Below, one piece after another: positions 30,869 through 55,351 of a stretch of 64,000 nucleotides of DNA. The stretch's first letter is position 1. Each line of letters begins with the position of its first letter. The position numbers and the translations under genes are program-made. This stretch comes from Chelativorans sp. Marseille-P2723 (GTDB lineage: Bacteria > Pseudomonadota > Alphaproteobacteria > Rhizobiales > Rhizobiaceae): contig NZ_CADDWI010000013.1 in assembly GCF_902809845.1 (NCBI RefSeq), positions 806,001-870,000 of the forward strand, written 5' to 3'. Below the pieces are notes generated by a model. The model ran no database searches. It was not told the DNA's origin and saw nothing but the letters and a program-made list of their open reading frames with translations.

Positions 30869-32464
30869 TTAGCTGCGGGTCAGCGGGCGGTAATCAAGCT
30901 GGCGATGGAAGGTGTAGCTGTAGTTCTCGATTGACGTCAGCATCCCCGTATCGAGTGACGGATGCCATAGAAGTATGATCGGAATTTCTTCCTTAACCAG
31001 CTCGATCATCCGCTTCACATCGGCATCATACACATCCTGATCTGTCTCGTAGCGGGTTTTCTCCACCAGGGAAATGAATTCAGGATTCTGATACGCTCCG
31101 AAGTTCCAGCGTGTGTCGCCATAGTAGAAAATGCGGAAGAAATAATCCGGATCGGCCAGATAGGAGGTGGATCCTTCGAAATAGAAGGGGATCTTCTTTT
31201 CCTGTAACAAGGTTCCAAGCTGCCCTGCCGGAACCTTGTTGATGGCGACGCGGATACCGATTTCGCCCAGCGCCTCCTGAAGAAGCAGCGCTACCGGTTC
31301 GGCCACTGTTGCTACCGAAAGTTCGAACGAGAAGGTAGTATCAAAACCGTCCGGATGGCTCGATTCGGCCATGAGCTGCTTGGCTTTTTCCAGATCCGTG
31401 GAGTAGCCCAGCGGCTGCGGAAATTTCGTCGACTCCGGGGCGCCCGGCGTACCGCCGAACAAGGGCTCGCCCCGCCCGAACAACGCAGCCTGAAACATGG
31501 CTTCATAAGGCAGAGCATAAGCAATGGCCTGGCGCACCTTCAAATCGTCGAAGGGAGCCAGTTGGTTGTTCATGCCGATGAACTGGAAGGTCGAAGTGGG
31601 CACGCCGACAACCTTGACCTGGTCATTGTTCAGGAGTTCGATGACATCCTTTGGCGGCAGGTCCTGCGCAATGTCAGCGTCGCCCTTGACGAGGGCGGCG
31701 ACGCGGCTCTCGGGCGCCGGAACGGTCTGCCACAGCACCTGTTCAAACGCTGGCAGCGGACCTGATTTCCAATCGTCGAAACGTTCATACAGGATGCGCT
31801 CGCCAATATTGGCGCGCGCGATCTTGTAGGCACCTCCGGCCGCTGTGTTGTTCTTCAGCCATTCCGAAGCCCAGGGATCGGCTTCGGTCGCATGCTGCAT
31901 TGCCAGCTTGGAGTTGACGATAATGGGATAGGTCAGCGCCAGGTTGGGCAGTGCAAACCGGTCCGGCTGCGGCAGGTCGATACGCAGCGTGTGCTCGTCG
32001 ACAATGACGAACTGCTCCGGGTCGGTCATGGAGCCCGTCTTGAACTGGGCAAGGCCGATGGGACTGGCGACAACACGATCGAGCGACCACTTGACGTCCT
32101 CGGCAGTTACCGGCGTGCCATCGTGGAAGACCGCATCCTTGCGCAGCCTGAAAGTCAGGGATTTGCGATCATCCGAGAACTCGTAGCTTTCAGCCAGTTC
32201 CGGCTCGATGTCGAAATAATCGTAATAGGCAGTGCCGTCGCCGCGGTCCTTGTAGGCGAAGCGCACGAGCCGGTCATAGACGTTCCACGTGATCTGGATC
32301 GCATTGCGATTGACCCCCACGGAGAAACTATCAAAGGAATTTGGCGCTCCCTCGCTGAGAACGCGCAGGCTCTTGGCCCGGGATTGGGCATTTGCCCATT
32401 TTACCGGAAGCATTATCCCGGCGCCGAATGCGCCGCTCAATGCCAGAAAATCACGCCGATTCAT
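30869..32464 (-). CDS. ABC transporter substrate-binding protein, peptide/opine family 5
   Basis: The 531-residue protein begins with a Tat-like signal (MNRRDFLALSGAFGAGIMLP), cleaved after ANA near residue 26. It has the family 5 landmarks SYEFSDDRKSLTFRLRKD, AVFHDGTPVTAEDVKWSLDR and VRQAIAYALPYEAMFQAALF. The ATG at 32464 has GGAGG 7 bases upstream. It is the last gene of the leftward operon, separated by 118 bases from the BKACE gene. Its membrane and ATPase partners are most likely DppBCDF at 51503-55351, the only such set in the window and one lacking its own binding protein. Family 5 proteins bind peptides, but also opines, nickel complexes and other small molecules. Confidence 0.94.
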   Translation of the reverse strand: MNRRDFLALSGAFGAGIMLPVKWANAQSRAKSLRVLSEGAPNSFDSFSVGVNRNAIQITWNVYDRLVRFAYKDRGDGTAYYDYFDIEPELAESYEFSDDRKSLTFRLRKDAVFHDGTPVTAEDVKWSLDRVVASPIGLAQFKTGSMTDPEQFVIVDEHTLRIDLPQPDRFALPNLALTYPIIVNSKLAMQHATEADPWASEWLKNNTAAGGAYKIARANIGERILYERFDDWKSGPLPAFEQVLWQTVPAPESRVAALVKGDADIAQDLPPKDVIELLNNDQVKVVGVPTSTFQFIGMNNQLAPFDDLKVRQAIAYALPYEAMFQAALFGRGEPLFGGTPGAPESTKFPQPLGYSTDLEKAKQLMAESSHPDGFDTTFSFELSVATVAEPVALLLQEALGEIGIRVAINKVPAGQLGTLLQEKKIPFYFEGSTSYLADPDYFFRIFYYGDTRWNFGAYQNPEFISLVEKTRYETDQDVYDADVKRMIELVKEEIPIILLWHPSLDTGMLTSIENYSYTFHRQLDYRPLTRS

Positions 32465-32582
32465 TCTATTCCTCCGTTGTTGATATCCTTGCAGGCAGTT
32501 TCACGAACTCGTCGGCCGATGTCGTGAAAGCCGCCCTCCTCTGGACTTCGTGGCGGCACCCGCCCTGTTATTGCTGGATGCT

Positions 32583-33536
32583 CTAGAAGCCCACCTTGTC
32601 GGAGCCTTTCAGCCCAAGCATCCGGCGGGCATCCGCGGGTGAGGCGACATCCTTTGTAAGTCCCTCGATGATGTTGCGGATCATGGTTACCTGTTCTGCA
32701 TTTGAAGTCGCCATTTTCCCGCGGCCTGCGTAAAGACTGTCTTCAAGACCCACACGGACATTGCCGCCCATTGTAGCCGCCATTGTGGCCATGTTCATTT
32801 GATGGCGGCCACCTGCCAGCACCGACCACTGGTAGGTTCCGGCGCCGAAAAGCCGGTCGGCGGTCTCTTTCATGAACATAAGGTTCTCAGGACCCGGTCC
32901 GATTCCTCCAAGGGTGCCGACGATCAGTTGAAGGAACATGGGCGTCTGCACGAGTCCGCGATCGAGCATATGGGCGAGATTGTAAAGATGGCCCACATCG
33001 TAGCACTCGAACTCGAACCGCGTGCCTCCTTTGCCCATCACGTCGAGAATGGTTTCGATATCGGAGAAGGTGTTGCGGAAGATCGCATTGCGCGAAGCTT
33101 CCAGATAGTCCTCTTCCCAATCGAACTTCCATTTGCCGCGATACTTCTCGATCATGGCATAGGTGCCGAAGTTCATTGAGCCCATATTGCACGAACAAAG
33201 CTCCGGTGAGGCGGTCGACGGTGCCTTCAGCCGGTCCTCGATCGACATAAACGTCGAGCCGCCCGTGGTCATGTTGAGCACTGCATCGGTTTCGGCGCGG
33301 ATCGAGCGCAGGATATGCAGCCAGATATCGAGGTCGGGCGTCGGGCGATGCGTGTTTGGATCGCGCGCGTGAAGATGCAGGATGGCAGCCCCCGCCTTTG
33401 CTGCATCGATAGCCTGTTCGATGATCGCATCCGGCGTCACCGGCAGATATTCCGACATTGTCGGCGTATGCGTAGCGCCGGTAATGGCGCAGGTGATGAT
33501 GACCCGATTCAGGTCTTCCTTGGCAATCGTGCTCAT
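32583..33536 (-). CDS. Beta-keto acid cleavage enzyme (BKACE, DUF849)
   Basis: The 317-residue protein is a TIM-barrel BKACE. The N-terminus VIITCAITGATHTPTMSEYL, the metal-site motif AAILHLHARDPNTHRPTPD, and GPGPENLMFMKETADRLF with NVRVGLEDSLYAGRGKMA are typical. The family condenses a beta-keto acid with acetyl-CoA to give acetoacetate and a new acyl-CoA, using Zn2+. The ATG at 33536 overlaps the SDR stop (ATGA) and has GGAG upstream; the longer frame starts at a TTG without support. The SDR before it could form the beta-keto acid that it cleaves. The side chain is unknown. Confidence 0.93.
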   Translation of the reverse strand: MSTIAKEDLNRVIITCAITGATHTPTMSEYLPVTPDAIIEQAIDAAKAGAAILHLHARDPNTHRPTPDLDIWLHILRSIRAETDAVLNMTTGGSTFMSIEDRLKAPSTASPELCSCNMGSMNFGTYAMIEKYRGKWKFDWEEDYLEASRNAIFRNTFSDIETILDVMGKGGTRFEFECYDVGHLYNLAHMLDRGLVQTPMFLQLIVGTLGGIGPGPENLMFMKETADRLFGAGTYQWSVLAGGRHQMNMATMAATMGGNVRVGLEDSLYAGRGKMATSNAEQVTMIRNIIEGLTKDVASPADARRMLGLKGSDKVGF

Positions 33537-34315
33537 TCCGTATACTCCAATCCGCCGCAAATTTGCATGACCTGTCCCGAGATCGGGCGCCCTGAAGGCC
33601 CGGTCAAATATACGACCAGGGCCGCGATTTCTTCCGGCTCGACCATGGTTTTCATTGACACCGCACGCAGCGCAATGGCTGCCATCTCGTCATAGCTTAT
33701 GCCCCGCGTCGTTGCCCGGTCAGTGAAGACACGGCGAATACGGTCGCCGGCGACGACCCCAGGCGCAATGGCATTGACGCGGATCTGGTCCGGTCCCAAT
33801 TCGACGGAGAGCGCCCGCGCCAGAGAGATCACTGCCGCCTTTGACGCTGCGTAGGGCGAACGCAGGCCGAAAGCGTATTTCCCCGCCACCGAAGCCATGC
33901 AGACGATTGAACCGCCCTGGTTCTTCTTCAGATGCGGGATGGCGGCGCGGGCCATGAAGAACTGGCCGTTCACATTGACGGCGAAGCAACGCGTCCAATC
34001 CTCGGTCGAGATGTTCTCCACCGGCGCCGCTGGGCCCGGTATTCCGGCGTTGTTCACCAGAATGTCCAGACCGCCCATATCGTCTGCCGCAGCTTGGACA
34101 AAAGCATTGCACGCGTCTGGATCGGCAACATCGCAGACCATGGTCTTGATGCCCGGCAAGGCGTTGCGCGCTTCTTCCAGCGCCGCTTCGGCGATGTCGC
34201 AGATCCAGACCTTTGCTCCAAGGCCCAGCATCGCCTCGGCGATCGAGCGGCCTATGCCGCCGGCCCCCGCCGTGATGATAACCCGCTGGCGCGCCCAATA
34301 GTCCGCCGTTGTCAT
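33533..34315 (-). CDS. Short-chain dehydrogenase/reductase
   Basis: The 260-residue classical SDR has a cofactor site TAGAGGIG (the first Gly of the usual TGxxxGIG is Ala), DILVNNAGIPGP, the catalytic serine region in CMASVAGKYAFG and YAASK. It ends VMQICGGLEYTE. An acidic residue follows the second strand (VWICDIAEA), which suggests NAD(H) preference. It should oxidise a hydroxy group, possibly a beta-hydroxy acid giving the keto acid for BKACE, with which it overlaps by four bases. It also overlaps the molybdoenzyme gene by four bases. Confidence 0.92.
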   Translation of the reverse strand: MTTADYWARQRVIITAGAGGIGRSIAEAMLGLGAKVWICDIAEAALEEARNALPGIKTMVCDVADPDACNAFVQAAADDMGGLDILVNNAGIPGPAAPVENISTEDWTRCFAVNVNGQFFMARAAIPHLKKNQGGSIVCMASVAGKYAFGLRSPYAASKAAVISLARALSVELGPDQIRVNAIAPGVVAGDRIRRVFTDRATTRGISYDEMAAIALRAVSMKTMVEPEEIAALVVYLTGPSGRPISGQVMQICGGLEYTE

Positions 34316-36621
34316 TTCTGCTCCTGCTTCTTGATTTTGGTGGAAATGCTATGCGAGCGGTCGATCTGCGGCGGCTCAAATGCGCGCACCGCAGGAGGCT
34401 CGCCTTCAAACCGCTCCACGAACACAATGGTCGTATGTGCAGTCGGCCCCTGTGCCAGACGTGAGGTCGGCAGGTCCATTGTCAAAACATTGACGTTGCC
34501 GTGCCGCTCGATCCCATCCGGTCCGATGTCTAGCCATGCACCGGTAGACATTTGCAGGACACCCGGAGCGACGTCTTCCGACAGCACAGCACCGCCAAGG
34601 CAGGCACCGCGAGCAGATCGAACCAATACGACGTCACCCTCGCGAATGCCTCGTTTCGCCGCTTCGTCCGGATGCATGCGTGCGGCTTCTCTGCCGGCTA
34701 CTTTGGCGTTCCGAGAGTGGGCACCCAGATCCAGTTGACTATGCAGTTTCGTTGCCGGTTGATTGGAGACCAGATGCAATGCCCCGTCGGGGGCGTTCCC
34801 CAACCACTCGGCCGGCTCGAACCAGGTTGGCATGCCGGGGCAATCGTCATAGCCGAACCCGGCGACCCTTTCCGAACGGATTTCTATTCTTCCCGTAGGT
34901 GTCAGAAGCCGATTGCGCACCGGATCGGCCCGGAAATCCGCCATCAACGGACGCGGGGAATCGAAAGGTGCAAAGACATACTCCCCGGCGTCCCAGAACG
35001 TGTCGAAGTCGGGAAGGTTATAGCCATGGCTGGCGGCGGCTGCATGGCTTTCGTCGTAAAGCCGGCGGATCCAGCCCATTTCATCGAGGCCACCGGTGAA
35101 ACTTTCGGCCAGTCCCATCCGAGCTGCAATGCCGGCGAGGATGTCATGATCGTTGCGCGCCTCTTCGTAGGGGGTCAGCGCTTGTTTCATCGCGATCAGA
35201 TGCGGCTCGCCCTTGGCGATGCCCAGATCGTTACGTTCGAGGGGCAGGGTGCAGGGCAGGACGATATCGGCATGTTTGGCGATCGAATTCCAAAGCGGTT
35301 CCTGCACCACTACCAACTCTGGTCCTTTCCAGACCCGGTGCAGTCGATTCAGATCCTGCTGATGGTGAAACGGATTGCCGCCTGCCCACCAGATCATCCG
35401 GATTTCGGGGTAATGGTAACAGGCGCCATTGTAATCGAAGGGAGCGCCGGGAAACTCCAGCATGTCCGCCAAACGCGCCACGGGAATAAAGCTGCGCACC
35501 GGGTTCTGGAATTGCGGCAGAGCGGGCCATTTGAAGGGCAGGGGCACATTTCCAACCCTGTTTGCGCCCGCATACCCGGTTCCGAAGCCTCCGCCTGGAA
35601 GACCAATCTGGCCGAGCATGGCTGCGAGCGTGACCAGCATCCAGACAGGCTGCTCCCCGTGATCGGCGCGTTGCAGTGACCATGAAAGCGAAAGCATTGT
35701 GCGACGCACAGCCATGCGACGGGCAAGATCGCGGATCGCGTCCGCGCCGACCCCAGTGATCTTTGCTGCCCATTCCGGCGATTTCGGCTGCCCGTCGTCT
35801 TTGCCGAGAAGATAGGCGCGGAATTCGGGATAGCCGACCGTGTGGCTCGCCAGAAAGTCTTGGTCGGCAAGGTCCTCGTTTTCCAGCACATAGGCCAGGC
35901 CCATCATCAGCGCGACATCTGTATTCGGCCGCGGCGCAAGCCATTCGGCGTCTAATTCGGCCATGATGTCATCGCGCAAAGGGGCGATGTTGACGAACCG
36001 GGTGCCTGCATTCCTTGCTGCAAGAAGCGCGTCCGGCACTTTATGGCGGCTGACGCCGCCGGCGCTCACCTGCGCGTTCCTCACCGGCAGCCCGCCGAAG
36101 GCTACAAACAGTTCGGTATGGCCGATGATCAGTTCCCAGGGGGTCTGGTTGTCTGCCATTCCGTCCTGTGAACCGATCACGTGCGGTAGCACGACTTCGG
36201 CTGCAGCATGGCTGAACGTGTTGACCGAGCGTACATAGCCGCCGGTCAGATTCAGGAAGCGGTGGATCTGGCTTTGCGCATGGTGAAAGCGGCCGGCGCT
36301 GGCCCAGCCATAAGAGCCACCATAGATCGCCTCATTGCCATATCCAGCAATCACCCGAGCCAATTCCTCGGCCACCAAGTCGCACGCGTCGTCCCAGGGC
36401 ACGGGCACGAATGCATCTTCGCCACGCGCTGCCCCGCCATCTCCCGCAAGCCAGCCGCGCCGCACCATCGGTTGCGCGATGCGCATGGGGCCGCGTATGG
36501 CGGCAAGATAATTGTCGCTGATGGCCGAAGGCGCGGGATCGTGATCCGCCGCCTTCATGGCGACGAGTTTGCCATTCTTCACGACCGGACGGGAAATTCC
36601 CCAATGGCTGAGGGTCAGCAT
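34312..36621 (-). CDS. Molybdopterin oxidoreductase, BisC/TorZ-like (S- or N-oxide reductase)
   Basis: The 769-residue protein belongs to the DMSO reductase family and resembles cytoplasmic biotin sulfoxide reductase BisC in length and in the N-terminal motif GGSYGWASAGRFHHAQSQIH. The serine expected to bind molybdenum is Ser137 (NTFSHAAAEV), 31 residues after Trp106, the same spacing as Trp116-Ser147 in Rhodobacter DMSO reductase. There is no Tat signal and no N-terminal Fe-S cysteine motif, so it should be cytoplasmic with bis-MGD alone. Relatives reduce biotin sulfoxide, methionine sulfoxide or TMAO. It is embedded between a MaoC hydratase (3 bases) and an SDR (4-base overlap), which is unusual for this family. 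Confidence 0.9.
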   Translation of the reverse strand: MLTLSHWGISRPVVKNGKLVAMKAADHDPAPSAISDNYLAAIRGPMRIAQPMVRRGWLAGDGGAARGEDAFVPVPWDDACDLVAEELARVIAGYGNEAIYGGSYGWASAGRFHHAQSQIHRFLNLTGGYVRSVNTFSHAAAEVVLPHVIGSQDGMADNQTPWELIIGHTELFVAFGGLPVRNAQVSAGGVSRHKVPDALLAARNAGTRFVNIAPLRDDIMAELDAEWLAPRPNTDVALMMGLAYVLENEDLADQDFLASHTVGYPEFRAYLLGKDDGQPKSPEWAAKITGVGADAIRDLARRMAVRRTMLSLSWSLQRADHGEQPVWMLVTLAAMLGQIGLPGGGFGTGYAGANRVGNVPLPFKWPALPQFQNPVRSFIPVARLADMLEFPGAPFDYNGACYHYPEIRMIWWAGGNPFHHQQDLNRLHRVWKGPELVVVQEPLWNSIAKHADIVLPCTLPLERNDLGIAKGEPHLIAMKQALTPYEEARNDHDILAGIAARMGLAESFTGGLDEMGWIRRLYDESHAAAASHGYNLPDFDTFWDAGEYVFAPFDSPRPLMADFRADPVRNRLLTPTGRIEIRSERVAGFGYDDCPGMPTWFEPAEWLGNAPDGALHLVSNQPATKLHSQLDLGAHSRNAKVAGREAARMHPDEAAKRGIREGDVVLVRSARGACLGGAVLSEDVAPGVLQMSTGAWLDIGPDGIERHGNVNVLTMDLPTSRLAQGPTAHTTIVFVERFEGEPPAVRAFEPPQIDRSHSISTKIKKQEQK

Positions 36622-36624
36622 CTG

Positions 36625-37458
36625 CTACGCAAACCTTGCCAGCCCGCCGTCCAGAACCGGCTTGTCGCGCCCCACGGAACGGGCGGCGAAACGAACGCCA
36701 CCCTCCTGGTTCCAATAGGAAACTTCGAGCTCTTCGCCGGGATAAAGCGGCCCGCTGAATCGTGCTGCAAAGCGGCTCATCCGTGCCGGATCACCGTCAC
36801 AGAAGTGGCGCAAGACGTCAAAGCAAACGAGGCCGAATGTGTTGGCGCCGTGCATGATAGGACGTTCGAAACCGGCTGCGCGCGCTGCCTCGGGCAGAAC
36901 GTGAAGGGCATTCAGATCGCCGAGCAAACGAAACAGCAGGGGACTGTCAGGGCGGCTGGCGATCCGGGTGGTGGCATCAGGCTGCCTTTCAGGGGAGCGG
37001 ATCATTTCGAATGCTTCGCCCCGAGATCCTCCAAAGCCACCCCCGCCCATGACGAAGAGGTTCGAATACGACGTAAAGACGATCTCGTCTCCATCCAGAA
37101 GGTCTGTCGCCAGCAGGATCAGCGCGGCTTTCCCATCGCCCTTATCAAGCAGGCCGGCTATCCTTGGCCGGGCAACCAGCGTTGCCTCGGGGACGAAAGG
37201 CCGATACATCCTCAAATCCAGGCCGCCATGCACCACCCGCGCGAGATCAACGCCGCACGCCTGCATCCAAGAGTCGTCAAAGCAGAGATTCTGTCCGAAG
37301 CTTGGGATGACGCGCAGCCCATCCTCATGAACGAAAGAAAGATTTTCGTGCGTCTCAGCGCCGCAGCAAAGTGCATAAAGAATTGCCTCCCGAGACGTGT
37401 AGGCGCGCGTACGATCGGCAAAGACATGGCTCTGGATTTTATCGGCGTCGAGAGTCAC
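36625..37458 (-). CDS. MaoC-type (double hot-dog) enoyl-CoA hydratase/dehydratase
   Basis: The 277-residue protein has two hot-dog halves. The second carries the hydratase-2 motif in GDLNALHVLPEAARAAGFER followed by PIMHG, and ends with FAARFSGPLYPGEELEVSYW. It would hydrate a 2-enoyl-CoA (R-specific) or dehydrate the reverse. The GTG at 37458 is chosen because AGGAGG stands 6 bases before it; the frame extends to 37515 without such a site. It is the first gene of the leftward operon, three bases before the molybdoenzyme. Confidence 0.88.
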   Translation of the reverse strand: MTLDADKIQSHVFADRTRAYTSREAILYALCCGAETHENLSFVHEDGLRVIPSFGQNLCFDDSWMQACGVDLARVVHGGLDLRMYRPFVPEATLVARPRIAGLLDKGDGKAALILLATDLLDGDEIVFTSYSNLFVMGGGGFGGSRGEAFEMIRSPERQPDATTRIASRPDSPLLFRLLGDLNALHVLPEAARAAGFERPIMHGANTFGLVCFDVLRHFCDGDPARMSRFAARFSGPLYPGEELEVSYWNQEGGVRFAARSVGRDKPVLDGGLARFA

Positions 37459-37615
37459 GCGGGTCCTCCTTCTGTCATTCTGCCGCAGACTTGCACTTCG
37501 TTTTGAAAAATGCAACAGGGTCTCGTTTAATGAAACAAATTCTGCCCGGCGGTTGGTTGATCGTTCACGATCGACATGAGCCCCTTGGCAAATAGCCCAG
37601 GAGGAGAGAGGCCAA
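37459..37615. promoter_or_regulatory. Divergent control region between the MaoC and thiolase operons
   Basis: The 157-bp gap must drive both operons. It holds two small inverted repeats: TTGCA (37491) with TGCAA (37511), and GTTT-AATG-AAAC (37525-37536). Its A+T content is well above that of its flanks. The IclR gene at 40870 is the natural regulator. A strong ribosome site (AGGAGGAGAG) precedes the thiolase. Operator assignment is tentative. Confidence 0.45.
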
Positions 37616-38836
37616 ATGAGTGAAGCCGTAATCGTAAGCGCGGTCAGAACTCCGATTGGTAAGGCCTACCGAGGGGCCTTCAATGATACTTCACCACAAC
37701 AGTTGGCCGGACATGCCATACGCGGTGCGCTGGCCGCCGCTGGCCTGAACGGCGAGGCGGGCGAGGCGGTGAATGACGTTGTAATGGGCTGCGCCCTCCA
37801 GCAAGGCGCCACCAGCTTCAATATCGGCCGGCAGGCCGCGTTGGCCGCCGGCTTGCCTTCTTCGGTGCCGGGGATGTCGGTCGATCGGCAATGCTCTTCA
37901 GGATTGGTGGCGCTGGCGCTTGCCGGTCAGCAGATACGCTGTGAGGGTGCAAGAATCGTAGTCGCCGGCGGTGTGGAGAGTTGCTCGCTTGTTCAGAACG
38001 AGCATCTGAACCGCTACCGGGCTGAAGATCCGGCGATCCTCGATCTCCAGCCTGCCCTGTACATGTCGATGATCGAGACAGCCGAGATCGTGGCCGACCG
38101 CTACGGGGTGACGCGCGCTGCACAGGACGAATTCGCGTACGTTTCGCAGCAGCGAATGGCCGCGGCCCAAGTTTCCGGCCGTTTTGACGCGGAAATCGTG
38201 CCTATTCAGGCGCGACAACTGGTAAAGGATCGCGAAACCGGTGAAGTCGCTCCGGTCGACCGGCTGGTCGAAACTGACGAATGCAATCGCCCCGGCACAA
38301 CACTTGCCGACCTTGCGAGACTGGAACCCGTATTCAAGGACGGGCAGCAGATCGCAGCAGGTCGTCATGTCACCGCCGGAAACGCCAGCCAATTATCAGA
38401 CGGAGCGGCAGCGCTGGTGGTCATGGAGGCTTCCGAGGCAGCAACGCGCGGCCTCACACCTCTGGGCGCGCTGCGCGGCATTGAAGTCGCGGGCTGCGCG
38501 CCGGAAGAAATGGGTATTGGCCCCGTCCTTGCCGTGCCGCAGCTCCTTAATCGATTTCGACTGAAGCCCGATGACATTGACCTTTGGGAGCTGAACGAGG
38601 CCTTTGCCGCCCAGGCTGTTTATTGCAGGGATCGCCTGGGGATAAATCCAGAGCGGCTAAACGTAAATGGCGGCGCGATAGCCATGGGGCATCCCTACGG
38701 AATGTCAGGCGCGCGCATGGCGACGCATATACTGCACGAGGGGCAGAGGCGGGGCGCTAGGTGGGGTGTGGTGACGATGTGCGTCGGCGGTGGTATGGGC
38801 GCTGCCGGCCTGATTGAAATTTTTCCGAACCGATAG
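37616..38836 (+). CDS. Acetyl-CoA C-acyltransferase (thiolase)
   Basis: The 406-residue thiolase has the acylated Cys93 in [19 protein letters not shown] (327-330), His359 in [16 protein letters not shown] and the acid/base Cys389 in [13 protein letters not shown]. It cleaves 3-ketoacyl-CoA in beta-oxidation, or condenses acyl-CoAs in reverse. It is followed after 11 bases by the FadJ-like gene, so the pair can complete beta-oxidation downstream of the acyl-CoA dehydrogenases encoded at 42417 and 44346. Confidence 0.95.
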
Positions 38837-44345: not shown

Positions 44346-45488
44346 ATGAACTTCGAACTCACGGACGAACAGCGCCTGATGCGCGATAATCTACGGTCAT
44401 TTTTGACCCGCGAATGCCCGATCGAATATGTTCGGGAATGCGACGAGCAAGAGCGGTTTCCCATCGAGCTTTACGAAAAGCTTGCCGCCGAAGGTTGGCT
44501 GGGGTTGCCGATCCCGGAGGAATATGGGGGTATGGGGGGCTCTTGCACTGACCTGGTCGTTTTCCTCGAAGAGTTTGCGCGCCATTTCGAGGCTGGCGCC
44601 AATCTCTATTATACGACCGTGGTGATCGCTACGGACGCCTTGGTGCATTTTGCTTCCGAGGCACAGAAGCGCGAATTGCTGCCGAAACTGGCACGGGGCG
44701 AGATACGCTTTGCTCTCTCCCTGTCAGAGCCGAACTCGGGATCAGACGCTGCCAGCCTGCGCACGCGTGCGGTGCTGGACGGTGATGAGTGGGTCATCAA
44801 CGGCCAGAAGATGTTCTGCTCAGCCGCGCAGGTAGCGGATTACATCCTGCTGATGGCCCGTTCGGATAACGAAGCGCCGAAGCACAAGGGCATCACCATG
44901 TTCCTTCTGCCAGTCGGAACACCGGGTGTCGAAATCAGGCGGCTGAAGAAATTGGGCCTGCGTCCTATGGATCTGAATGAGATCTTTCTGACGGATGTGC
45001 GCCTGCCGAAAGACTCGATCATCGGCGAAGTAAACAAGGGTTGGACCAACGTCCTGAAGACGCTCGACTATGAGCGCTGCTGCCTGTCGGCGGTAAATGT
45101 GGGCGCCGCGCAAAAGGTGCTGGAATATATCCTCGAATATACCAGCGAGCGGGAACAGTTCGGGCAGAAGATCAATAGCTTCCAGCTCACCCGCGCCAAG
45201 CTTGCCGACATGGATATGGAGATAGAGGCGGCGCGTCTGCTGCTTTACCGCTCCGCGGACCTCGTCGACCGTGGCATTCCGAACAACAAGGAAAGCGCCA
45301 TGGCCAATCTGTATTCCTCGGAGACCTATGTCCGGGCGGCCCTGAACGGAATGCGGATGATGGGCGGCTGGGGTTATCTGATGGAATATGACATGCAGCG
45401 TCATTTCCGCGATTCCAAGCTGGCGGAAATCGGCGGTGGAACTTCTGAGATCCTGCGGATCATTATTTCGCGCGAGCTCACGAAATGA
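44346..45488 (+). CDS. Acyl-CoA dehydrogenase 2 (IVD/LCAD-type active site)
   Basis: The 380-residue enzyme has FALSLSEPNSGSDAASLRTR, EQFGQKINSFQLTRAKLADM and the tail EIGGGTSEILRIIISRELTK. In the tail the MCAD-type glutamate is replaced by glycine. The base is then expected in the earlier helix, Glu243 of LKTLDYERCCLSAV, as in isovaleryl-CoA dehydrogenase. So it probably takes a different acyl-CoA from dehydrogenase 1. It begins one base after the crotonase stop and ends overlapping the PLP enzyme start. Confidence 0.93.
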   Translation: MNFELTDEQRLMRDNLRSFLTRECPIEYVRECDEQERFPIELYEKLAAEGWLGLPIPEEYGGMGGSCTDLVVFLEEFARHFEAGANLYYTTVVIATDALVHFASEAQKRELLPKLARGEIRFALSLSEPNSGSDAASLRTRAVLDGDEWVINGQKMFCSAAQVADYILLMARSDNEAPKHKGITMFLLPVGTPGVEIRRLKKLGLRPMDLNEIFLTDVRLPKDSIIGEVNKGWTNVLKTLDYERCCLSAVNVGAAQKVLEYILEYTSEREQFGQKINSFQLTRAKLADMDMEIEAARLLLYRSADLVDRGIPNNKESAMANLYSSETYVRAALNGMRMMGGWGYLMEYDMQRHFRDSKLAEIGGGTSEILRIIISRELTK

Positions 45489-48078: not shown

Positions 48079-49304
48079 GCTTCCGACGTGATTTCAGCGA
48101 GTTGAAAGAAATCGGCGTCGACCCTGCCGGCGGCTGGTCGCGCCAGGCGTTCTCGGCTGCGGATATCGCGGCCCATGAATGGTTGTTGGCCAAAGGCCGT
48201 GATGCTGGACTTTCTGCTCGTTACGATTTCTTCGGAAACGTGATCTTGCGGCTGGAAGGTGAGGGAAGGGCGGTGCTGATCGGCTCGCATCTGGACACGG
48301 TGCAGAACGGCGGCGCCTTTGACGGGGCAATCGGCGTGCTGGCTGGGCTGGAGGTTGCGCGCAGGTTGAAGGCAGAAAACTCGCCGGGGCTGCCCGTCGA
48401 GGTGATTGCGTTCCGCGACGAGGAGGGGCGTTTTGGCCCCTTCACAGGCAGTCGGGCAATGGCCGGACTGCATGACGAGCAGACTCTAGCCAAAGCGCGA
48501 GGGGCAGACGGCGTTTTGCTCGCCGACGTGATGGCTGCCGCCGGCTTTGCCCCCGCTAACGCGCCGCGCGAATGGGACGACGTCGCCGCTTGGCTGGAGT
48601 TGCACATCGAACAAGGTCCGGTTCTGGAAGCTGCGGGGATCGGGCTTGGCATTGTGACGTCGATTGCGGGCCAGGAGCGGCTGTCCTTGCGCTTTACAGG
48701 CCGAGCCGATCATGCAGGGACGGCGCCGATGGATTTGCGGCGCGATGCCTTTGCCGGGGCCGCGCGCTTTGCCGTAGAATTTCGCGAACTCATCCGTAGC
48801 TCGACCGACCCCGCCCTACGTGGCACGATCGGGGTCATAAAGCTTCTGCCCAATCAGGGCAACGTGGTCCCTGAGCAGGTTACGCTCGGGCTGGAAATCC
48901 GTTCAACGCACGCCGAAACCTTATCCTTTATGCGCGAGCGCATAGAGGAAACGGCCAAGAAGCTCGCCTTGGATGAGGGCCTCGAACTGAGAATCCGGAG
49001 ACTCTATTCCGATGGACCGGTGCCAATGGCCCCGGCGCTTCAGAAAGTGTTGGCGGATGCGGCGGCCGATCTGGGCCATCAGGCGATGTTCCTCCCCTCG
49101 GGGGCCAACCACGATACCGGCATAATTGGCCGCATTGTTCCCGCGGCCATGCTCTTTGTTCCTTCCGTTGATGGACGCAGTCACTGTCCGGAAGAGCAGA
49201 CGGAACTGGAGCAGATCGAAAACGCGATAGATGTGCTGCACCGCGCCGTCGCCACCCTGCGCAGCAGCCACCCGCCGGGCCTAGAACGGGCTGAGGTGCA
49301 ATGA
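48075..49304 (+). CDS. M20-family N-carbamoyl amino acid hydrolase / allantoate amidohydrolase
   Basis: The 409-residue zinc enzyme has GSHLDTVQNGGAFDGAIGVL (His82, Asp93), FRDEEGRFG (Glu116/117), WLELHIEQGPVLE and ADHAGTAPMDLRRDA, the block of ureido-acid hydrolases, with FLPSGANHDTGII near the end. It hydrolyses an N-carbamoyl acid to the amino acid, CO2 and NH3. With the preceding hydantoinase it forms a complete ureide-opening pair. Start and stop both overlap neighbours by four bases. Confidence 0.92.
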   Translation: MSFRRDFSELKEIGVDPAGGWSRQAFSAADIAAHEWLLAKGRDAGLSARYDFFGNVILRLEGEGRAVLIGSHLDTVQNGGAFDGAIGVLAGLEVARRLKAENSPGLPVEVIAFRDEEGRFGPFTGSRAMAGLHDEQTLAKARGADGVLLADVMAAAGFAPANAPREWDDVAAWLELHIEQGPVLEAAGIGLGIVTSIAGQERLSLRFTGRADHAGTAPMDLRRDAFAGAARFAVEFRELIRSSTDPALRGTIGVIKLLPNQGNVVPEQVTLGLEIRSTHAETLSFMRERIEETAKKLALDEGLELRIRRLYSDGPVPMAPALQKVLADAAADLGHQAMFLPSGANHDTGIIGRIVPAAMLFVPSVDGRSHCPEEQTELEQIENAIDVLHRAVATLRSSHPPGLERAEVQ

Positions 49305-50998
49305 TTCAGACTCCCGACAGCCAAACTCTCAATGCTTTCCAGACTGGTGCGCAATCGCCGCTATGGCGCCCGGGAGAACCTGCCGAGATCCCGCTGCCCA
49401 AAGGGAACCTCGCTCAAAGCTTGCTCCGGTCAGCCGAAAACTGGCCTGAAAGTCCCGCCATGCATTATTATGGCGCGAGCTATGATTATGCGGCGCTTTT
49501 GGCCGATGTGGAAGCGTTGGCCGGATGGTTTGCAGCCAATGGGTTGCGCCCAGGCGACCGGGTGATGCTGGATCTGCAAAACTCGCCTCAGTTTGTGATC
49601 GCTTTTTACGCTACTCTGCGGGCGAATGGGGTGGTTGTCCCGGTTAATCCGATGAACACCACTGCGGAAGTGGGATACTTCGCAAAGGACAGCGGCGCTC
49701 GCTTCGCTGTCGTGGGGGAAGAGCTGCTTGAGCGTTTTGTGCCCTATATGGGCACCTATTTCGACCAGGTGGTGCGGGTGCGCTATTCCGATATGGCTCC
49801 CGAAGATGCCTGCGGCCTTCCGGAAATGATGCGGGGGGCTCCGCCCGCAGCGGTTGAGGGCGCCATAGACCTGGCTGAGATCCTGGCCGAGAGGCTGCCG
49901 CCCCCGCCTTTGGTGACGGGCGAGTCGGACCTGGCGATCCTTCCCTATAGTTCCGGGACTACCGGGAAGCCAAAGGCGTGCATGCACACCCATGGCGGCG
50001 CATTGTTCGTAACCGCGGCCCAGGTGCGTTGGTACCGCCTGGACCGACATTCGGTCATGACCAGTTTCATGCCCTTGTTTCATGTGGCTGGAATGATGGC
50101 ATCCATGGCCTCGGCCATCTATTGCGGCGCGTCACTGATCTTGATGACGCGATGGGAAGCCGAAGCCATTCCGGCCCTTTTCCGTCAGTTGCGCCCGACC
50201 TGGTGGTCTGCTGCTCCGACCATGGTGGTCGATGTGCTGGCCGCAAAGGGTTTTACAGATGATTGCTTCAGCAGCCTGAAGGTGATGACCGGAGGCGGTG
50301 CCTCCATGCCGGCAGCCGTTGTCGCACGGCTGAAAGAGCGATGGGGCCTGAAGTTCTGTGAAGGATACGGCCTGACGGAAACCATCTCCGCCACGCATCT
50401 TAACTCGCTCGAGAAGCCCAAACCGCAATGCCTGGGACTGCCGATCTACAATACGCATTCCATGGTAGTCGATCCGCAGACGCTCGACCCGTTGCCTCAG
50501 GGACAGGTCGGCGAGATCCTGATCTCCGGCCCGCAGATCATGCAAGGCTACTGGAATCGTGCTGAGGACACGGCGGAAGCCCTGATTGAAAAGGACGGCC
50601 GCAAATGGCTGCGTACGGGCGACCTGGGCTATGTGGATGAGGACGGCTGCTATTTCATCGTCGATCGTTTAAAGCGGATGATCAACACGGCCGGCTATAA
50701 CGTCTGGCCCGCCGAATGTGAAATGCTGCTTTACAGCCATCCGGCCGTGGCCGAGTGTGCGGTGATTGCAGCACCCGATCCACGCCGCGGTGAGCAGGTA
50801 CGGGCAATCATCGTTCTTCATCCCGAGTATCGCGGGAAGGTGACGGCGGAAGATATCATCACATTTTCGCGCACAAAGATGGCTGCCTACAAGGTTCCCC
50901 GCCAGGTCGAGTTCCGCGAGACGCTGCCACGTTCGGCTACGCGAAAGATCGACTGGCGGGCATTGCAGGCAGAGGCTTGGGGCGAGGAAAAGCCATAG
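49301..50998 (+). CDS. Acyl-CoA synthetase (AMP-forming ligase)
   Basis: The 565-residue ANL-family ligase has the P-loop YSSGTTGKPKACMHTHG (from 216), GYGLTETISATHLNS, the adenylate motif WLRTGDLGYVDEDG with DRLKRMINTAGYNVWPAE, and the C-terminal lysine in LPRSATRKIDWRAL. It activates a carboxylate to its CoA thioester and so supplies the entry step for the two acyl-CoA dehydrogenases. The ATG overlaps the upstream stop. The acyl group cannot be told from sequence. Confidence 0.95.
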   Translation: MIQTPDSQTLNAFQTGAQSPLWRPGEPAEIPLPKGNLAQSLLRSAENWPESPAMHYYGASYDYAALLADVEALAGWFAANGLRPGDRVMLDLQNSPQFVIAFYATLRANGVVVPVNPMNTTAEVGYFAKDSGARFAVVGEELLERFVPYMGTYFDQVVRVRYSDMAPEDACGLPEMMRGAPPAAVEGAIDLAEILAERLPPPPLVTGESDLAILPYSSGTTGKPKACMHTHGGALFVTAAQVRWYRLDRHSVMTSFMPLFHVAGMMASMASAIYCGASLILMTRWEAEAIPALFRQLRPTWWSAAPTMVVDVLAAKGFTDDCFSSLKVMTGGGASMPAAVVARLKERWGLKFCEGYGLTETISATHLNSLEKPKPQCLGLPIYNTHSMVVDPQTLDPLPQGQVGEILISGPQIMQGYWNRAEDTAEALIEKDGRKWLRTGDLGYVDEDGCYFIVDRLKRMINTAGYNVWPAECEMLLYSHPAVAECAVIAAPDPRRGEQVRAIIVLHPEYRGKVTAEDIITFSRTKMAAYKVPRQVEFRETLPRSATRKIDWRALQAEAWGEEKP

Positions 50999-51047: not shown

Positions 51048-51506
51048 ATGACGAGGCAGGTTTGGTATGAGGATTTTATTCCGGGCACGGTGCTGACCAG
51101 TGCCGCCCGCCGGATCGAACTTTCAGATATCGAGACCTATGCGCGTCTGACCGGCGAGAACCATCCCGTCCATATGGAGGATGATTTCGCGCGGCAGGCG
51201 GGTTTCGCCGGCCGCATCACCCATGGTTTGTTCAACCTGGCGCTCATCGAGGGATTGAAGGCGGAGCTGGGATATTTCGATCGCTCAGTGACCGCTTCTT
51301 TGGGATGGACCGACGTCCGATTTTCGGCACCACTTTATCCCGGTGAATACGTCCATCTTCGACTTGAACTCATCAGCCGCCGCCCGACGAAAAAGCCGGG
51401 CAGGGGTCTTGCCACGGAACGTGGTTTCCTGATGAAGGCCGATGGTACCGAAGTCGTGCGCGGGGACCATCTTGTGCTCATCCTCAACCGTCCGGAGGAG
51501 ATATGA
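51048..51506 (+). CDS. MaoC-like dehydratase (single hot-dog)
   Basis: The 152-residue protein has the R-hydratase motif in TGENHPVHMEDDFARQAGFA followed by GRITHGLFN, and the ending VVRGDHLVLIL. It is a second hydratase of the operon besides the crotonase. GGGGAAGGG precedes the ATG after a 49-base gap, the only notable gap in the later part of the operon. It overlaps dppB by four bases. Confidence 0.9.
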   Translation: MTRQVWYEDFIPGTVLTSAARRIELSDIETYARLTGENHPVHMEDDFARQAGFAGRITHGLFNLALIEGLKAELGYFDRSVTASLGWTDVRFSAPLYPGEYVHLRLELISRRPTKKPGRGLATERGFLMKADGTEVVRGDHLVLILNRPEEI

Positions 51507-52510
51507 GTCGTATCGGCATTCGCCTGTTGTCGACCATCCCGACCTTGTTCGGTGTTATCCTCGTCACCTTCCTGCTGACAAGGGTTCTGCCGGGCGACCC
51601 GGCAGTATTCTTTGCTTCAAACCCGTCAATGACGCAGGCCGATATCGAGGCGGTGCGCACCAGCCTCGGGCTGGACCGCCCATTGATCGTGCAATTCTGG
51701 CTCTATCTCAAGGCGCTTCTGCATGGCGACCTGGGCAACTCGCTTTCTACCGGGCAGAAGGTGACGACCGAATTTGCCAACCGTCTGCCTGCTTCAGCCG
51801 AACTGACGATCTTCGCCTTTGTCATCGCGACCGCCGTTGCGCTTCCGCTTGGCGTCATTGCAGCGCTGCGGCGCGGATCGTTCATCGACCACTTGTCGCG
51901 GTTAATTGCGACGCTTGGGGTTTCGATGCCGACTTTCGTGACCGGGCTGCTGCTGATATTCTTCTTCTATTTCCTGATTGGCTGGGCTCCGGAGCCTATC
52001 GGCCGTCTGGACCCCTTCATGTTCGAGCCTGAGAGGGTCACGGGCCTTTATACCGTGGACGCGTTGCTTGCCGGCGATCTGGAACTGTTTTGGGCAGCGC
52101 TGAAACAGATGGTATTGCCGGCGGTGACGATGGCGCTTTTCGCGCTCGCGCCGCTCACAAGGATGGCCCGCGCGTCCATGCTTGAAACCCTGGGCTCAGA
52201 GTTCATCCGTACGGCCCGCGCCGCGGGCCTCTCCCGGCGCAAGATTATTGTCACCTACGCCTTCCGCAATGCGATGCTGCCCGTTGTCACCACGATGGGA
52301 ATGACCTTCTCCTACATGCTCGGCGCAAATGTTCTGGTGGAGCGGGTGTTTTCCTGGCCTGGGGTGGGAGCCTTCGCGATCGACAGCATCATCAATCTCG
52401 ATTACGCACCTTTGCAGGGTTTCATGCTGGTGATGGCGGGAATTTTCATCCTGGTGAACCTGACGACCGACATCCTGATCACTCTCATCGATCCGAGGTC
52501 AAGCCTGTGA
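51503..52510 (+). CDS. dppB: ABC transporter permease (DppB type)
   Basis: The 335-residue inner-membrane protein has about six helices, the N-terminal LSTIPTLFGVILVTFLLTRV and LPGDPA of the DppB family, and the coupling-helix region FIRTARAAGLSRRKIIVTYA. It forms half of the channel with DppC. The four Dpp genes form the end of the catabolic operon and lack a binding protein here; that at 30869 is the likely partner. Confidence 0.95.
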   Translation: MSRIGIRLLSTIPTLFGVILVTFLLTRVLPGDPAVFFASNPSMTQADIEAVRTSLGLDRPLIVQFWLYLKALLHGDLGNSLSTGQKVTTEFANRLPASAELTIFAFVIATAVALPLGVIAALRRGSFIDHLSRLIATLGVSMPTFVTGLLLIFFFYFLIGWAPEPIGRLDPFMFEPERVTGLYTVDALLAGDLELFWAALKQMVLPAVTMALFALAPLTRMARASMLETLGSEFIRTARAAGLSRRKIIVTYAFRNAMLPVVTTMGMTFSYMLGANVLVERVFSWPGVGAFAIDSIINLDYAPLQGFMLVMAGIFILVNLTTDILITLIDPRSSL

Positions 52511-53364
52511 GTTCCGCAATTAAGGAGCGGTTTGAGTCGATCCGCTATACGGTTGCAAGCAATCCACTGAACCTGCTGGCCTTCGGCCTGTTCACGCTCA
52601 TCGTTCTGGTGGCGGTCTTCGCGCCCTCGCTGGTGCCTCATGATCCGCTCAAGACGAATTCGCAATTTGCGCTGCAAGGTCCGTCGGCCACTTTCTGGTT
52701 CGGGACTGACCAGTTGGGTCGCGACATCTTCTCCCGCGTCATGGTTGCGACACGGCTTGATCTGCTCATCGCCTTTGGCGCGGTGATCCTGTCATGTGTG
52801 GTCGGCTCCCTGATCGGCGCGATGATCGGCTATTGGGGCGGGTTCTGGGACGGGGCCGTGTCACGCATGGTCGACGTGCTGATGGCTTTTCCTCTTTTCG
52901 TTCTGGCCATGGCCATGGTCGCTGCACTGGGGAACACGGTAGCCAATGTCGTCTATGCGACTGCCGTGGTGAACCTGCCATTCTACATCCGCCTGGCGCG
53001 GAGCGAGATGCGGGTGCGGCGGGGGCTTGGCTATGTCGAGGCGGCACGGGTAGGCGGCTCGGGTGATTGGCGGATTCTAACTCGCTTCCTTCTTCCCAAT
53101 ATGGCAGCGCCGTTGGTCATTCAGGCGTCGGTGAACCTTGGATGGGCGGTATTGAACGCTGCCGGCTTGTCGTTTCTGGGCCTTGGCGTGCGGCCGCCTA
53201 CGCCGGAATGGGGCATCATGGTAGCCGACGGCGCCCGCTATATCGCTTCCGGTCAATGGTGGATCGCAGCCTTCCCGGGGCTGGCGCTGATGCTTACCGT
53301 TTTTGTCTTCAATCTGATGGGAGATGCCTTGCGCGACATCCTGGACCCGAGGATGAGGACATGA
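52507..53364 (+). CDS. dppC: ABC transporter permease (DppC type)
   Basis: The 285-residue protein starts at GTG 52507 in a 4-base overlap. Family features are an N-terminal helix, HDPLKTNSQFALQGPSATFW and FGTDQLGRDIFSRVMVATRL. The coupling loop EAARVGGSGDWRILTRFLLP and the final GDALRDILDPRMR follow. It pairs with DppB. Confidence 0.95.
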   Translation: MSSAIKERFESIRYTVASNPLNLLAFGLFTLIVLVAVFAPSLVPHDPLKTNSQFALQGPSATFWFGTDQLGRDIFSRVMVATRLDLLIAFGAVILSCVVGSLIGAMIGYWGGFWDGAVSRMVDVLMAFPLFVLAMAMVAALGNTVANVVYATAVVNLPFYIRLARSEMRVRRGLGYVEAARVGGSGDWRILTRFLLPNMAAPLVIQASVNLGWAVLNAAGLSFLGLGVRPPTPEWGIMVADGARYIASGQWWIAAFPGLALMLTVFVFNLMGDALRDILDPRMRT

Positions 53365-54377
53365 ACGAACCTTTATTGTCGGTACGTAACCTGACGGTGG
53401 ATTTTGCCACACGCCGTGGCACGGTTCACGTGCTGGACGATGTGTCGTTCGACGTGGGCGCGGGCGAGATTGTCGGCATTATTGGCGAATCGGGGTCCGG
53501 AAAATCAGTCACCGCATATTCGATAATGGGCATTCTCGATCATGCGGCGCGGATTTGTTCCGGCGAAATCATGTTCGAAGGACGGGACGTGCTGAAAATG
53601 CACCGCCGCGAGCGTGACGGTTGGCGAGGTCGGGAGGCCTCGATCATATTCCAGAACCCGCGCACTGCGTTGAACCCGATCCGCGCCGTGGGGGACCAGA
53701 TAGCCGATGTCATCGCCCGGCATACGCCCGCTCCGGCAGCAGAAATTCGCGAACGCACCATCGCCTCGCTGCGCCAGGTACGCATTCCCGATCCTGAGCG
53801 CCGTTTGCGTGCCTATCCGTTTGAGCTTTCGGGCGGCCTGTGCCAGAGGATCGGCATCGCCATGGCGCTTGCCTGCAAGCCGAAGCTGTTGATTGCGGAT
53901 GAGCCGACGACTGGGCTGGACGTAACCACGCAGGCCGTGATCATGGACTTGATCCAGGGGCTGGTCCGCGAGAAGGGCATCTCAGTGGCGCTGATCACCC
54001 ATGACATCGCGCTCGCCTCGGAATATTGCGACCGCCTGATCATCATGCATGCAGGCCATGTGGTTGAGGTGGCGCCCACCGCCGAAATTATCGCGAACCC
54101 GCGTCATCCCTATACGGAAAAGCTTCTGCGTTCGGTTCCCTCGCTGGTCGACAGTATAGATGAATTGCAGGCTATCGACGGGTCACTTCCCGACCTGCGC
54201 CGCCGGGACCTCCCTCCTTGCCGCTTTGCAGAACGCTGCTCCCGCCGCCTGGCGGAGTGCGATGCAGGTCGGTTGACGCTGGAGCTTGCCCTGGCGGCAC
54301 CGCAGCCCTGCACCTTGCGGAAAGGAACTGGGCCGCTTTCAACCCCTCATCTTATTGCATGCAAGAACCCGCTATGA
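53361..54377 (+). CDS. dppD: ABC transporter ATP-binding protein (DppD type)
   Basis: The 338-residue ATPase has Walker A GESGSGKS (42-49), a signature region ELSGGLCQRIGIAMALA, Walker B LLIADEPTTGLDVTTQ and the H-loop LITHDIALA. The C-terminal oligopeptide-type region has a cysteine pattern (PPCRFAERCSRRLAECDAG) that in relatives can bind an Fe-S cluster. It starts at the ATG overlapping the dppC stop. Confidence 0.95.
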   Translation: MNEPLLSVRNLTVDFATRRGTVHVLDDVSFDVGAGEIVGIIGESGSGKSVTAYSIMGILDHAARICSGEIMFEGRDVLKMHRRERDGWRGREASIIFQNPRTALNPIRAVGDQIADVIARHTPAPAAEIRERTIASLRQVRIPDPERRLRAYPFELSGGLCQRIGIAMALACKPKLLIADEPTTGLDVTTQAVIMDLIQGLVREKGISVALITHDIALASEYCDRLIIMHAGHVVEVAPTAEIIANPRHPYTEKLLRSVPSLVDSIDELQAIDGSLPDLRRRDLPPCRFAERCSRRLAECDAGRLTLELALAAPQPCTLRKGTGPLSTPHLIACKNPL

Positions 54378-55351
54378 GCACCTTGTTCGAAGCCCATGGG
54401 CTCAAAATGTACTATCCACTGCCGCAAAAGTCGGCGATTGCTCCACCGTTGAAGCTCCATGCGGTGGATGGTGTGGATCTTCGAATTTCGCCCGGAGAAG
54501 CGGTAGGACTGGTGGGTGAATCAGGCTGCGGCAAGTCCACCCTTTCGCGTCTGATCGCAAGACTCGTTGATCCAACGGAGGGGGAGATTTTTCTGGAAGG
54601 CCGGGAGATAACGAAGATCAGGGCATCCGAATTTTCCCGCTCACAAGACCGCCGCACGATCCAGATGGTGTTTCAGGATCCATCCGAAAGCCTGAACCCC
54701 CGCCTTTCCGTTTTTGACCTGATCGCAGACCCGGTACGAGTACTGATACGGCCTTCCAGAGCGGAGCTGCGCAGCCGTGTCGAGGAAGCAGCCACGGCAG
54801 TGAATCTGCCCCTCGCCCTGCTCGACCGTTTCCCGCACCAGCTATCGGGTGGGCAGAAGGCGAGGGTTGGGATTGCTCGCGCCATAGCCGTTGAGCCGCG
54901 TCTTCTGGTTCTTGATGAGCCGACCTCGGCACTGGACGTTTCAGTGCAGGCGACGGTTCTGCAATTGCTCGATCGCTTGCGACGCGAGCGGGAAATCGCG
55001 CTTCTGTTCGTCAGCCACGATCTGAACGTGGTGCGGCTGCTGTGCAGCCGGATCGTCGTCATGTATATGGGGCAGGTGGTCGAAAGCGGCCCGTCCGACG
55101 AAGTCTATGCCTCACCTGCGCATCCCTATACGCGCGCATTGCTGTCCGCGATACCTACATTGCGTCCACGCCGCGGCGAGCGTATCAAGCTGGAAGGCGA
55201 TCCGCAAAGCCCGATCGCGCCGTCCGATATGCAGTGTCGCTTCGCCGGCCGGTGCCCGGTCGAGCGCCCGGAGTGTTCGGTAACCATGCCGCTCCTGAGA
55301 ACATTGGATAATGGCCGCCTCGTGCGCTGCCATTTTGCCGAGGAGCAATAG
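54374..55351 (+). CDS. dppF: ABC transporter ATP-binding protein (DppF type)
   Basis: The 325-residue ATPase has Walker A GESGCGKS, signature QLSGGQKARVGIARAI, Walker B LLVLDEPTSALDVSVQ and the H-loop LFVSHDLNV. The C-terminus has the cysteine region CRFAGRCPVERPECSVT. It closes the 11-gene operon; the 4-base overlap with dppD couples translation. Confidence 0.95.
   Translation: MSTLFEAHGLKMYYPLPQKSAIAPPLKLHAVDGVDLRISPGEAVGLVGESGCGKSTLSRLIARLVDPTEGEIFLEGREITKIRASEFSRSQDRRTIQMVFQDPSESLNPRLSVFDLIADPVRVLIRPSRAELRSRVEEAATAVNLPLALLDRFPHQLSGGQKARVGIARAIAVEPRLLVLDEPTSALDVSVQATVLQLLDRLRREREIALLFVSHDLNVVRLLCSRIVVMYMGQVVESGPSDEVYASPAHPYTRALLSAIPTLRPRRGERIKLEGDPQSPIAPSDMQCRFAGRCPVERPECSVTMPLLRTLDNGRLVRCHFAEEQ

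Follow-up and report, generated by a model that had tools for sequence, protein, structure and literature searches.

Bacterial biotin degradation was reportedly described by McCormick and co-workers in the 1960s–70s as β-oxidation of the side chain, with ring cleavage left unexplained. Here we describe a 24.5-kb gene cluster (positions 30869–55351) in a 64,000-nucleotide stretch of DNA from Chelativorans sp. Marseille-P2723 (hereafter the window; G000:C13:806001–870000, part of a 3.77-Mb genome), in which an acyl-coenzyme A (acyl-CoA) ligase, β-oxidation enzymes and the handling of S-oxides match the metabolites reported in that work. The cluster is a real and rare unit, with orthologues in 11 other genomes of at least two families, those named being alphaproteobacteria. 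Our leading reading, to which we give slightly less than an even chance, is that it serves the uptake and breakdown of biotin, together with related natural compounds (biotin S-oxide, bisnorbiotin and tetranorbiotin). We hold it possible, if doubtful, that a third round of β-oxidation within the thiophane ring turns the cyclic urea into an L-cysteine-type hydantoin, and that the cluster encodes the whole route. A preliminary description, made from the letters alone, had proposed a complete catabolic system for biotin or a similar compound; a conserved and probably co-regulated set of genes for acyl-CoA, S-oxide and ureide chemistry and probable C–S lysis bears this out in part, and the substrate stays a proposal.

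The author of that description knew of no characterised cluster for such a pathway, and among the matches listed in the literature that we searched, which covered few subscription journals, no genes or cluster were assigned to bacterial biotin degradation. A review of biotin production remarks in passing on a Pseudomonas production organism without a degradation pathway (PMC11089781). If the proposal is correct, the cluster would provide a genetic handle on the turnover of biotin, a vitamin for which many bacteria depend on others, explain how the ureido-thiophane ring is opened, point to strains suited to testing each step and offer a marker for biotin consumers.

Conservation and regulation of the cluster

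Scans of open reading frames (ORFs) against Pfam and NCBIfam place 21 genes in the stretch, as long and tightly packed ORFs, and between them confirm every enzyme named in the preliminary description, the gene list and coordinates of which proved correct. From the first acyl-CoA dehydrogenase (ACAD1) to the second transporter ATPase, intergenic gaps measure −4 to +49 bases. When 101 genomes were searched with the hydantoinase of the cluster, one other close match was found (71% identity, genome G045), whereas the rest of the listed matches reached 41% at most. The genes that flank this close match form nearly the same set as in the cluster. Two exact peptide patterns, scanned across a collection of one genome per species (84,980 species), retrieved six orthologous loci, besides an unrelated match of 32%; the loci belong to Mesorhizobium zhangyense, a Rhodobacterales metagenome-assembled genome (MAG) in which the gene set is split over two contigs, a Mesorhizobium MAG, Pseudodonghicola flavimaris, Roseovarius aestuarii and a Frigidibacter MAG. 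Samples of wider groups were searched with the hydantoinase at E 1e-120 (1e-115 for the phylum), strict thresholds at which distant relatives would be missed. They contained the cluster in 3 of 394 genomes from the Pseudodonghicola family (query genome counted), 6 of 394 from the family of the window and 2 of 385 from its class (window counted in both), and in the window only among 398 from its phylum. The family and class samples added genomes G430, G712, G701 and G747 and the more distant G883 (55%). The fifteen same-genus genomes among the 101 searched had no hydantoinase match above the level of paralogues; such a patchy distribution is of the kind expected from transfer between bacteria. 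All 184 matching plasmid records (PLSDB, E ≤ 1e-60) were below 60% identity.

In total, 12 loci were counted, including that of the window; genome G627, treated as most likely a repeat of the M. zhangyense genome, was not. As the loci were found through the hydantoinase, its presence in 12 of 12 holds by construction, and truncated contigs are included in the counts. Both acyl-CoA dehydrogenases (ACAD1 and ACAD2) are kept in all 12 loci; the ligase, crotonase and IclR-family regulator in 11; the carbamoylase and the second of two MaoC-type hydratases (MaoC2) in 10; and the first (MaoC1) in 8. Present in nine are the β-keto acid cleavage enzyme (BKACE), the short-chain dehydrogenase/reductase (SDR) and the rhodanese-domain protein, together with the pyridoxal-phosphate (PLP) enzyme and a linked S-oxide reductase, the two genes whose co-occurrence with the hydantoinase the preliminary description had suggested following across genomes. 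The sole locus without a ligase is that of G430, a 3.4-kb contig; gene absences at the ends of this contig and of the 14.9-kb contig of G712 mean little. This recurrence of the same genes together marks the cluster as more than a chance neighbourhood.

Shared operator-like boxes precede both arms of the cluster. Upstream of ACAD1, 11 aligned loci share a −35-like TTGACA together with a box similar to ATATTGAAAC, preceded at a distance of 20 bases by a looser one similar to TAATAAAAC; in the window, the proposed operator (42345–42378, plus strand) comprises boxes at 42345–42358 and 42365–42378. A reversed GAAAC box lies upstream of MaoC1 in 8 aligned loci, and the second proposed operator, between MaoC1 and the thiolase gene (37504–37537, plus strand), likewise has two boxes 20 bases apart (37504–37517 and 37524–37537). 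The box edges were picked by eye on alignments that include the window row, and only the scoring matrices exclude the window. The ACAD1-side matrix, built from the other loci, ranks 42365 first and 37524 second of 127,974 window positions, and the MaoC1-side matrix, built in the same way, returns the same two sites in the same order. The second boxes at 42345 and 37504 rank 9 and 12 with the ACAD1-side matrix; with the MaoC1-side matrix 37504 ranks 12 and 42345 only 171, or 151 at best. A palindrome, GTTTNATNAAAC, was rejected as the operator: it is perfect in the MaoC1/thiolase gap of the window but has at least two mismatches in other loci. As the same box stands at both operon promoters, the MaoC1–reductase–SDR–BKACE arm and the ACAD1-to-transporter arm are probably one regulon under one regulator. 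This would most simply be the IclR-family protein (40870–41706, minus strand), which matches the BhcR, KdgR and IclR models under their cut-offs; it and the rhodanese-domain protein (41853–42290, minus strand; best match NF006444 at a modest 68.6 bits, this and other rhodanese models all under cut-off) were assigned from the NCBIfam scan only.

Gene order and regulation bear on an alternative already raised in the preliminary description, that two neighbouring pathways are carried together, one a β-oxidation set for fatty or aromatic acids and the other an unrelated set for methionine or cysteine hydantoin. All of the enzyme families do serve in such roles elsewhere. However, the genes for ACAD2, the PLP enzyme, the hydantoinase, the carbamoylase and the ligase interleave the two supposed sets, overlap by 4 bases in the window, keep the same order in 9 of the 12 loci and stand with the rest under one operator type, and we regard this alternative as improbable.

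Enzymes and a proposed route for biotin

The ligase, two dehydrogenases, cytoplasmic reductase, hydantoinase, carbamoylase and C–S lyase together fit biotin better than the other compounds that we considered. Coordinates below refer to the plus strand unless marked minus. The acid would be imported by an ATP-binding cassette system that consists of a family-5 (Opp/Dpp/Gsi-type) solute-binding protein (30869–32464, minus; PF00496, 1.2e-79), which is conserved across loci, two Opp/Dpp-type permeases (51503–52510, PF00528 and PF19300; 52507–53364, PF00528 and PF12911) and two Opp/Dpp-type ATPases (53361–54377, scanned as ORF 53067–54377; 54374–55351, scanned as ORF 54218–55351; both PF00005 and PF08352). 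The N terminus of the binding protein, MNRRDFLAL, is a candidate twin-arginine-like signal.

Once inside, S-oxides would be returned to the thioether by an S/N-oxide reductase of the dimethyl sulfoxide (DMSO) reductase family (34312–36621, minus), for which we propose a BisC-like role. It shares its family and a GGSYGW motif with Escherichia coli BisC and Rhodobacter DMSO reductase, and DMSO reductase 1eu1 is its nearest solved relative. Read by eye, its ORF begins at the start of the mature enzyme, 3 bases after the MaoC1 stop, with no visible export signal, which fits an intracellular substrate. Its identity is 42% to E. coli BisC and 40% to TorA and TorZ, and it scores 914.5 bits against TIGR00509, below the cut-off of 1017.55 for E. 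coli-type BisC. The enzyme may act as a cytoplasmic S-oxide reductase, and is not a proven BisC.

The AMP-forming ligase (49301–50998; PF00501/PF13193; NF006181 at 699.7 bits, cut-off 705) would make biotinyl-CoA. The preliminary description had the ligase and two dehydrogenases run two β-oxidation rounds, an assignment that the motifs of the dehydrogenases refine. ACAD1 (42399–43574; Pfam; nearest Protein Data Bank (PDB) entry 6fah) has a Glu376-type motif, IWEGTSEI, in 11 of 11 rows. ACAD2 (44346–45488; Pfam; aligned to 5ol2) has Gly at that place (IGGGTSEI) and, in 12 of 12 rows, an Asp-Tyr-Glu-Arg motif (DYERCC) of the isovaleryl/long-chain dehydrogenase type; we take these motifs to hold the respective catalytic bases. 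With such unlike signatures, the division of labour between the two enzymes may go beyond two rounds on the side chain.

In the proposed route, ACAD1 would act with one of two hydratase/dehydrogenase pairs. The first is the crotonase (43571–44344, scanned as ORF 43460–44344; PF00378; both catalytic Glu in 11 of 11 rows) with a FadJ-like crotonase/3-hydroxyacyl-CoA dehydrogenase fusion (38848–40815; PF00378, PF02737 and PF00725). The second is the hydratase-2-like MaoC1 (36625–37515, minus, with its true start probably downstream of 37515; PF01575 and PF22622; GDxNxLH motif in 8 of 8 aligned rows) with the SDR (33533–34315, minus; PF13561/PF00106); these look like the halves of an (R)-specific pair beside the (S)-type crotonase and FadJ. 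Either pair, with the thiolase (37616–38836; PF00108/PF02803; TIGR01930 above cut-off) or with the BKACE (32583–33536, minus; PF05853, 5.3e-103) acting on the free β-keto acid, would strip off the valerate chain over two rounds. The BKACE, the ORF of which opens at 33560 with a likely ATG at 33536, could cleave the free 3-keto acid of the side chain or of the ring.

The product of the two side-chain rounds would be tetranorbiotinyl-CoA, in which the α-carbon (C4) is bound to sulfur and the β-carbon (C3a) to a urea nitrogen. ACAD2 would desaturate C4–C3a within the thiophane ring. One of the two MaoC enzymes, the second of which (51048–51506; PF01575) has a divergent GExHPVH motif in 10 of 10 rows, would then hydrate C3a to a carbinolamide; because C3a bears the urea nitrogen, this nitrogen would be expelled, leaving a ketone in the ring and C6a with a free ureido group. 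Breaking the C3a–C4 bond would yield the CoA ester of S-carboxymethyl-N-carbamoyl-L-cysteine, which would close to the hydantoin. Ring β-oxidation of this kind would account for a hydantoinase and a carbamoylase in a pathway that sets out from a plain urea ring, a difficulty that the preliminary description had raised against its own proposal; the answer is chemically coherent and conjectural at each step. A stereochemistry script gave C6a of D-biotin as R (priorities N, CH2-S, C3a, H), the L-cysteine arrangement, which fits an L-type carbamoylase; it used structures entered by hand and assigned L-cysteine as R, L-alanine as S and biotin as 3aS,4S,6aR.

The hydantoinase/dihydropyrimidinase (46672–48078; TIGR02033 at 417.8 bits, cut-off 393.25; PDB 4kqn) would open the hydantoin. 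From its score and its metal site it is predicted to hydrolyse a hydantoin or a dihydropyrimidine: H62, H64, carbamylated K153, H187, H243 and D317, which we take to be the full set of metal ligands, are present in 12 of 12 rows. The loop after HxH is altered, reading GFMGQRSVYDF in 11 of 12 rows, and Gln72 and Arg73 occur in all 12 rows and in none of six usable paralogues (a seventh, L004, was unalignable); Arg73 could hold an acidic side chain. The adjacent putative N-carbamoyl-amino-acid hydrolase (48075–49304), an M20-family carbamoylase with its motifs intact in 10 rows and 357.4 bits against TIGR01879 (hydantoinase/carbamoylase family amidase; cut-off 204), would take off the carbamoyl group.

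If the biotin ring were instead opened from the opposite end, the C3a nitrogen would be kept, a β-ureido acid or dihydrouracil would form, and the hydantoinase would act as a dihydropyrimidinase. TIGR02033, in which the enzyme scores above cut-off, carries the dihydropyrimidinase name, and uracil is reported to be among bacterial biotin products. Against this, the carbamoylase is nearer to N-carbamoyl-L-amino-acid hydrolase (3n5f, its nearest PDB entry, 246 bits) than to N-carbamoyl-β-alanine hydrolase (8c46, 167.7 bits), with allantoate amidohydrolase at 204.5 bits; no gene of the cluster obviously breaks the C6a–N bond; and no dihydropyrimidine dehydrogenase was found among the scanned cluster genes. 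We think this variant quite unlikely.

On the hydantoin route, the last step would fall to the Cys/Met-metabolism PLP enzyme (45485–46675; PF01053, 6.8e-137), a presumed C–S lyase that would split S-carboxymethyl-L-cysteine into pyruvate, ammonia and thioglycolate. Its nearest PDB entries are cystathionine γ-synthase and methionine γ-lyase, and its PLP lysine is kept. Two more specific identities were rejected: for methionine γ-lyase it scores 399.3 bits against a cut-off of 549.7 and has Gly or Val at the place of Cys116 in 9 rows, and for cystathionine γ-lyase the two Glu that contact the distal amino group are replaced by Val and Pro in 9 of 9 rows, the marker positions being those we presume for the two enzymes. 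By these marks it would be neither.

Variation among loci and the choice of substrate

Several observations weigh against biotin as the substrate. No enzyme of the cluster is specific to biotin and all of the families are broad; the transporter is of the peptide type; and the best NCBIfam model for the carbamoylase is a subfamily of allantoate amidohydrolases, whose cut-off it narrowly misses (397.2 bits against 399). The BKACE scores above the cut-off of the 3,5-dioxohexanoate model NF053538 (518.4 bits, cut-off 430), which gives a predicted substrate, and this nearest named activity is not obviously needed in the pathway. Orthology of the reductase to E. coli BisC was rejected: in the tree BisC pairs with TorZ and then with TorA (support 100/100), and the window enzyme falls outside this clade, so that the earlier label ‘BisC-type’ holds only at the level of the family.

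Other points against come from differences between loci. The PLP gene is not found between ACAD2 and the hydantoinase in G712 and G430, where the interval was read directly, nor on the contig of G883, so that 3 of the 12 loci are without the lyase; relatives of the enzyme in these three genomes (E ≤ 1e-60) do not exceed 38% identity, and G712 has none at this threshold. The 29-kb contig of G883 also lacks the crotonase, MaoC, SDR, BKACE, rhodanese and carbamoylase; the best carbamoylase of that genome (42%) is on another contig, and G430 has none (E ≤ 1e-30). Thiolase and FadJ, linked in four of the eight loci read across (window, G104, G105 and G106), are missing from the other four (G101, G103, G701 and G747). 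The only reductase match in G701 (E ≤ 1e-80) lies unlinked elsewhere in the genome. The preliminary description had held that homologous clusters without the BisC-like, PLP and rhodanese genes would speak against it, and the absence of the PLP gene from three loci and the unlinked reductase of G701 are in part such cases. In favour of the proposal, the reductase is linked in 9 of the 12 loci, and in three of these (G103, G747 and G883) it branches apart from the group formed by the remaining six, which would suit separate recruitment.

Biotin auxotrophy was considered as support and set aside as uninformative: bioB is over cut-off in none of the 12 cluster genomes, but among relatives it was likewise found in only 27 of 146 and 21 of 144.

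The three Mesorhizobium-type loci (G103, G701 and G747) carry further genes beside the cluster, at L009:9913–13793, L010:8154–10792 and matching places in G701 and G747. They encode HyuA and HyuB, which are 90–95% alike except for one end piece of 60% in G747, as well as a class-III aminotransferase (89%) and an additional crotonase-like protein (82–84%). HyuA and HyuB are relatives of cyclic-amide hydrolases and are counted in favour of a biotin-type substrate. The best model for this HyuA, caprolactamase (467.9 bits, far under the cut-off of 1000), also lends something to a third alternative, that a similar pathway serves another acid that combines a thioether with a cyclic amide or ureide, such as the thiazolidinone fatty acid acidomycin, an unknown natural product or a xenobiotic. 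In that case the ligase and dehydrogenases would shorten the chain and the hydantoinase would open the ring. The breadth of the enzyme families suits it, as do the three loci without a PLP gene and the two without a carbamoylase, as if the rings handled differed by locus. However, a carbamoylase in 10 of 12 loci points to a ureide and not a lactam, and biotin is the common natural compound with all three groups. We judge another such acid unlikely, while giving it more weight than the other alternatives, and retain biotin and its relatives as the proposed substrates.

Neighbouring genes and related systems

The cluster is flanked on the left by sugar-nucleotide and glycosyltransferase genes and on the right by an Xre/RES toxin–antitoxin-type pair directly adjoining it (55572–56668) and a major facilitator superfamily gene. 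When the 11 flanking window ORFs were compared with the 12 assembled stretches of the other loci, ten gave no match at E ≤ 1e-5; the remaining one, a UDP-glucose dehydrogenase, matches a gene in G105 that lies around 15 kb away from the cluster there. Beside the distant cluster of G883 is a 937-amino-acid ORF with a C-terminal DUF4387 domain (L045:4578–7391).

The window contains a second ureide-type locus (899–10384), with a class I/II aminotransferase, HyuB and HyuA (minus strand), an IclR gene and tripartite ATP-independent periplasmic transporter genes; its HyuA is 35% like that adjoining the Mesorhizobium-type clusters. A further carbamoylase homologue, 37% identical to that of the cluster, is encoded around 14 kb to the left of the window (G000:C13:790847–792004). 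At 17489–20574, a cytochrome oxidase subunit I gene adjoins a protoglobin/GGDEF gene.

Like the hyu-type pairs of hydantoinase and N-carbamoyl-L-amino-acid hydrolase, the cluster has the two genes adjacent and with intact motifs; unlike them, its pair is embedded in an operon with a CoA ligase and dehydrogenases, and the substrate loop of the hydantoinase is changed. Ergothioneine catabolism also places a hydantoinase and a carbamoylase (ErtD and ErtE) in a pathway for a sulfur compound; the enzymes of the cluster score 230.5 and 368.5 bits against these, under the equivalog cut-offs of 650 and 520. To our knowledge, the ergothioneine route uses no acyl-CoA steps. The BKACE belongs to the same enzyme family as the triacetate acetoacetate-lyase of phloroglucinol degradation (PMC10470551), whereas no phloroglucinol reductase or cyclohydrolase is found among the scanned cluster genes. 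Set beside these systems, the cluster is best filed as a catabolic regulon of the β-oxidation type in which ureide and sulfur enzymes are combined in a new way.

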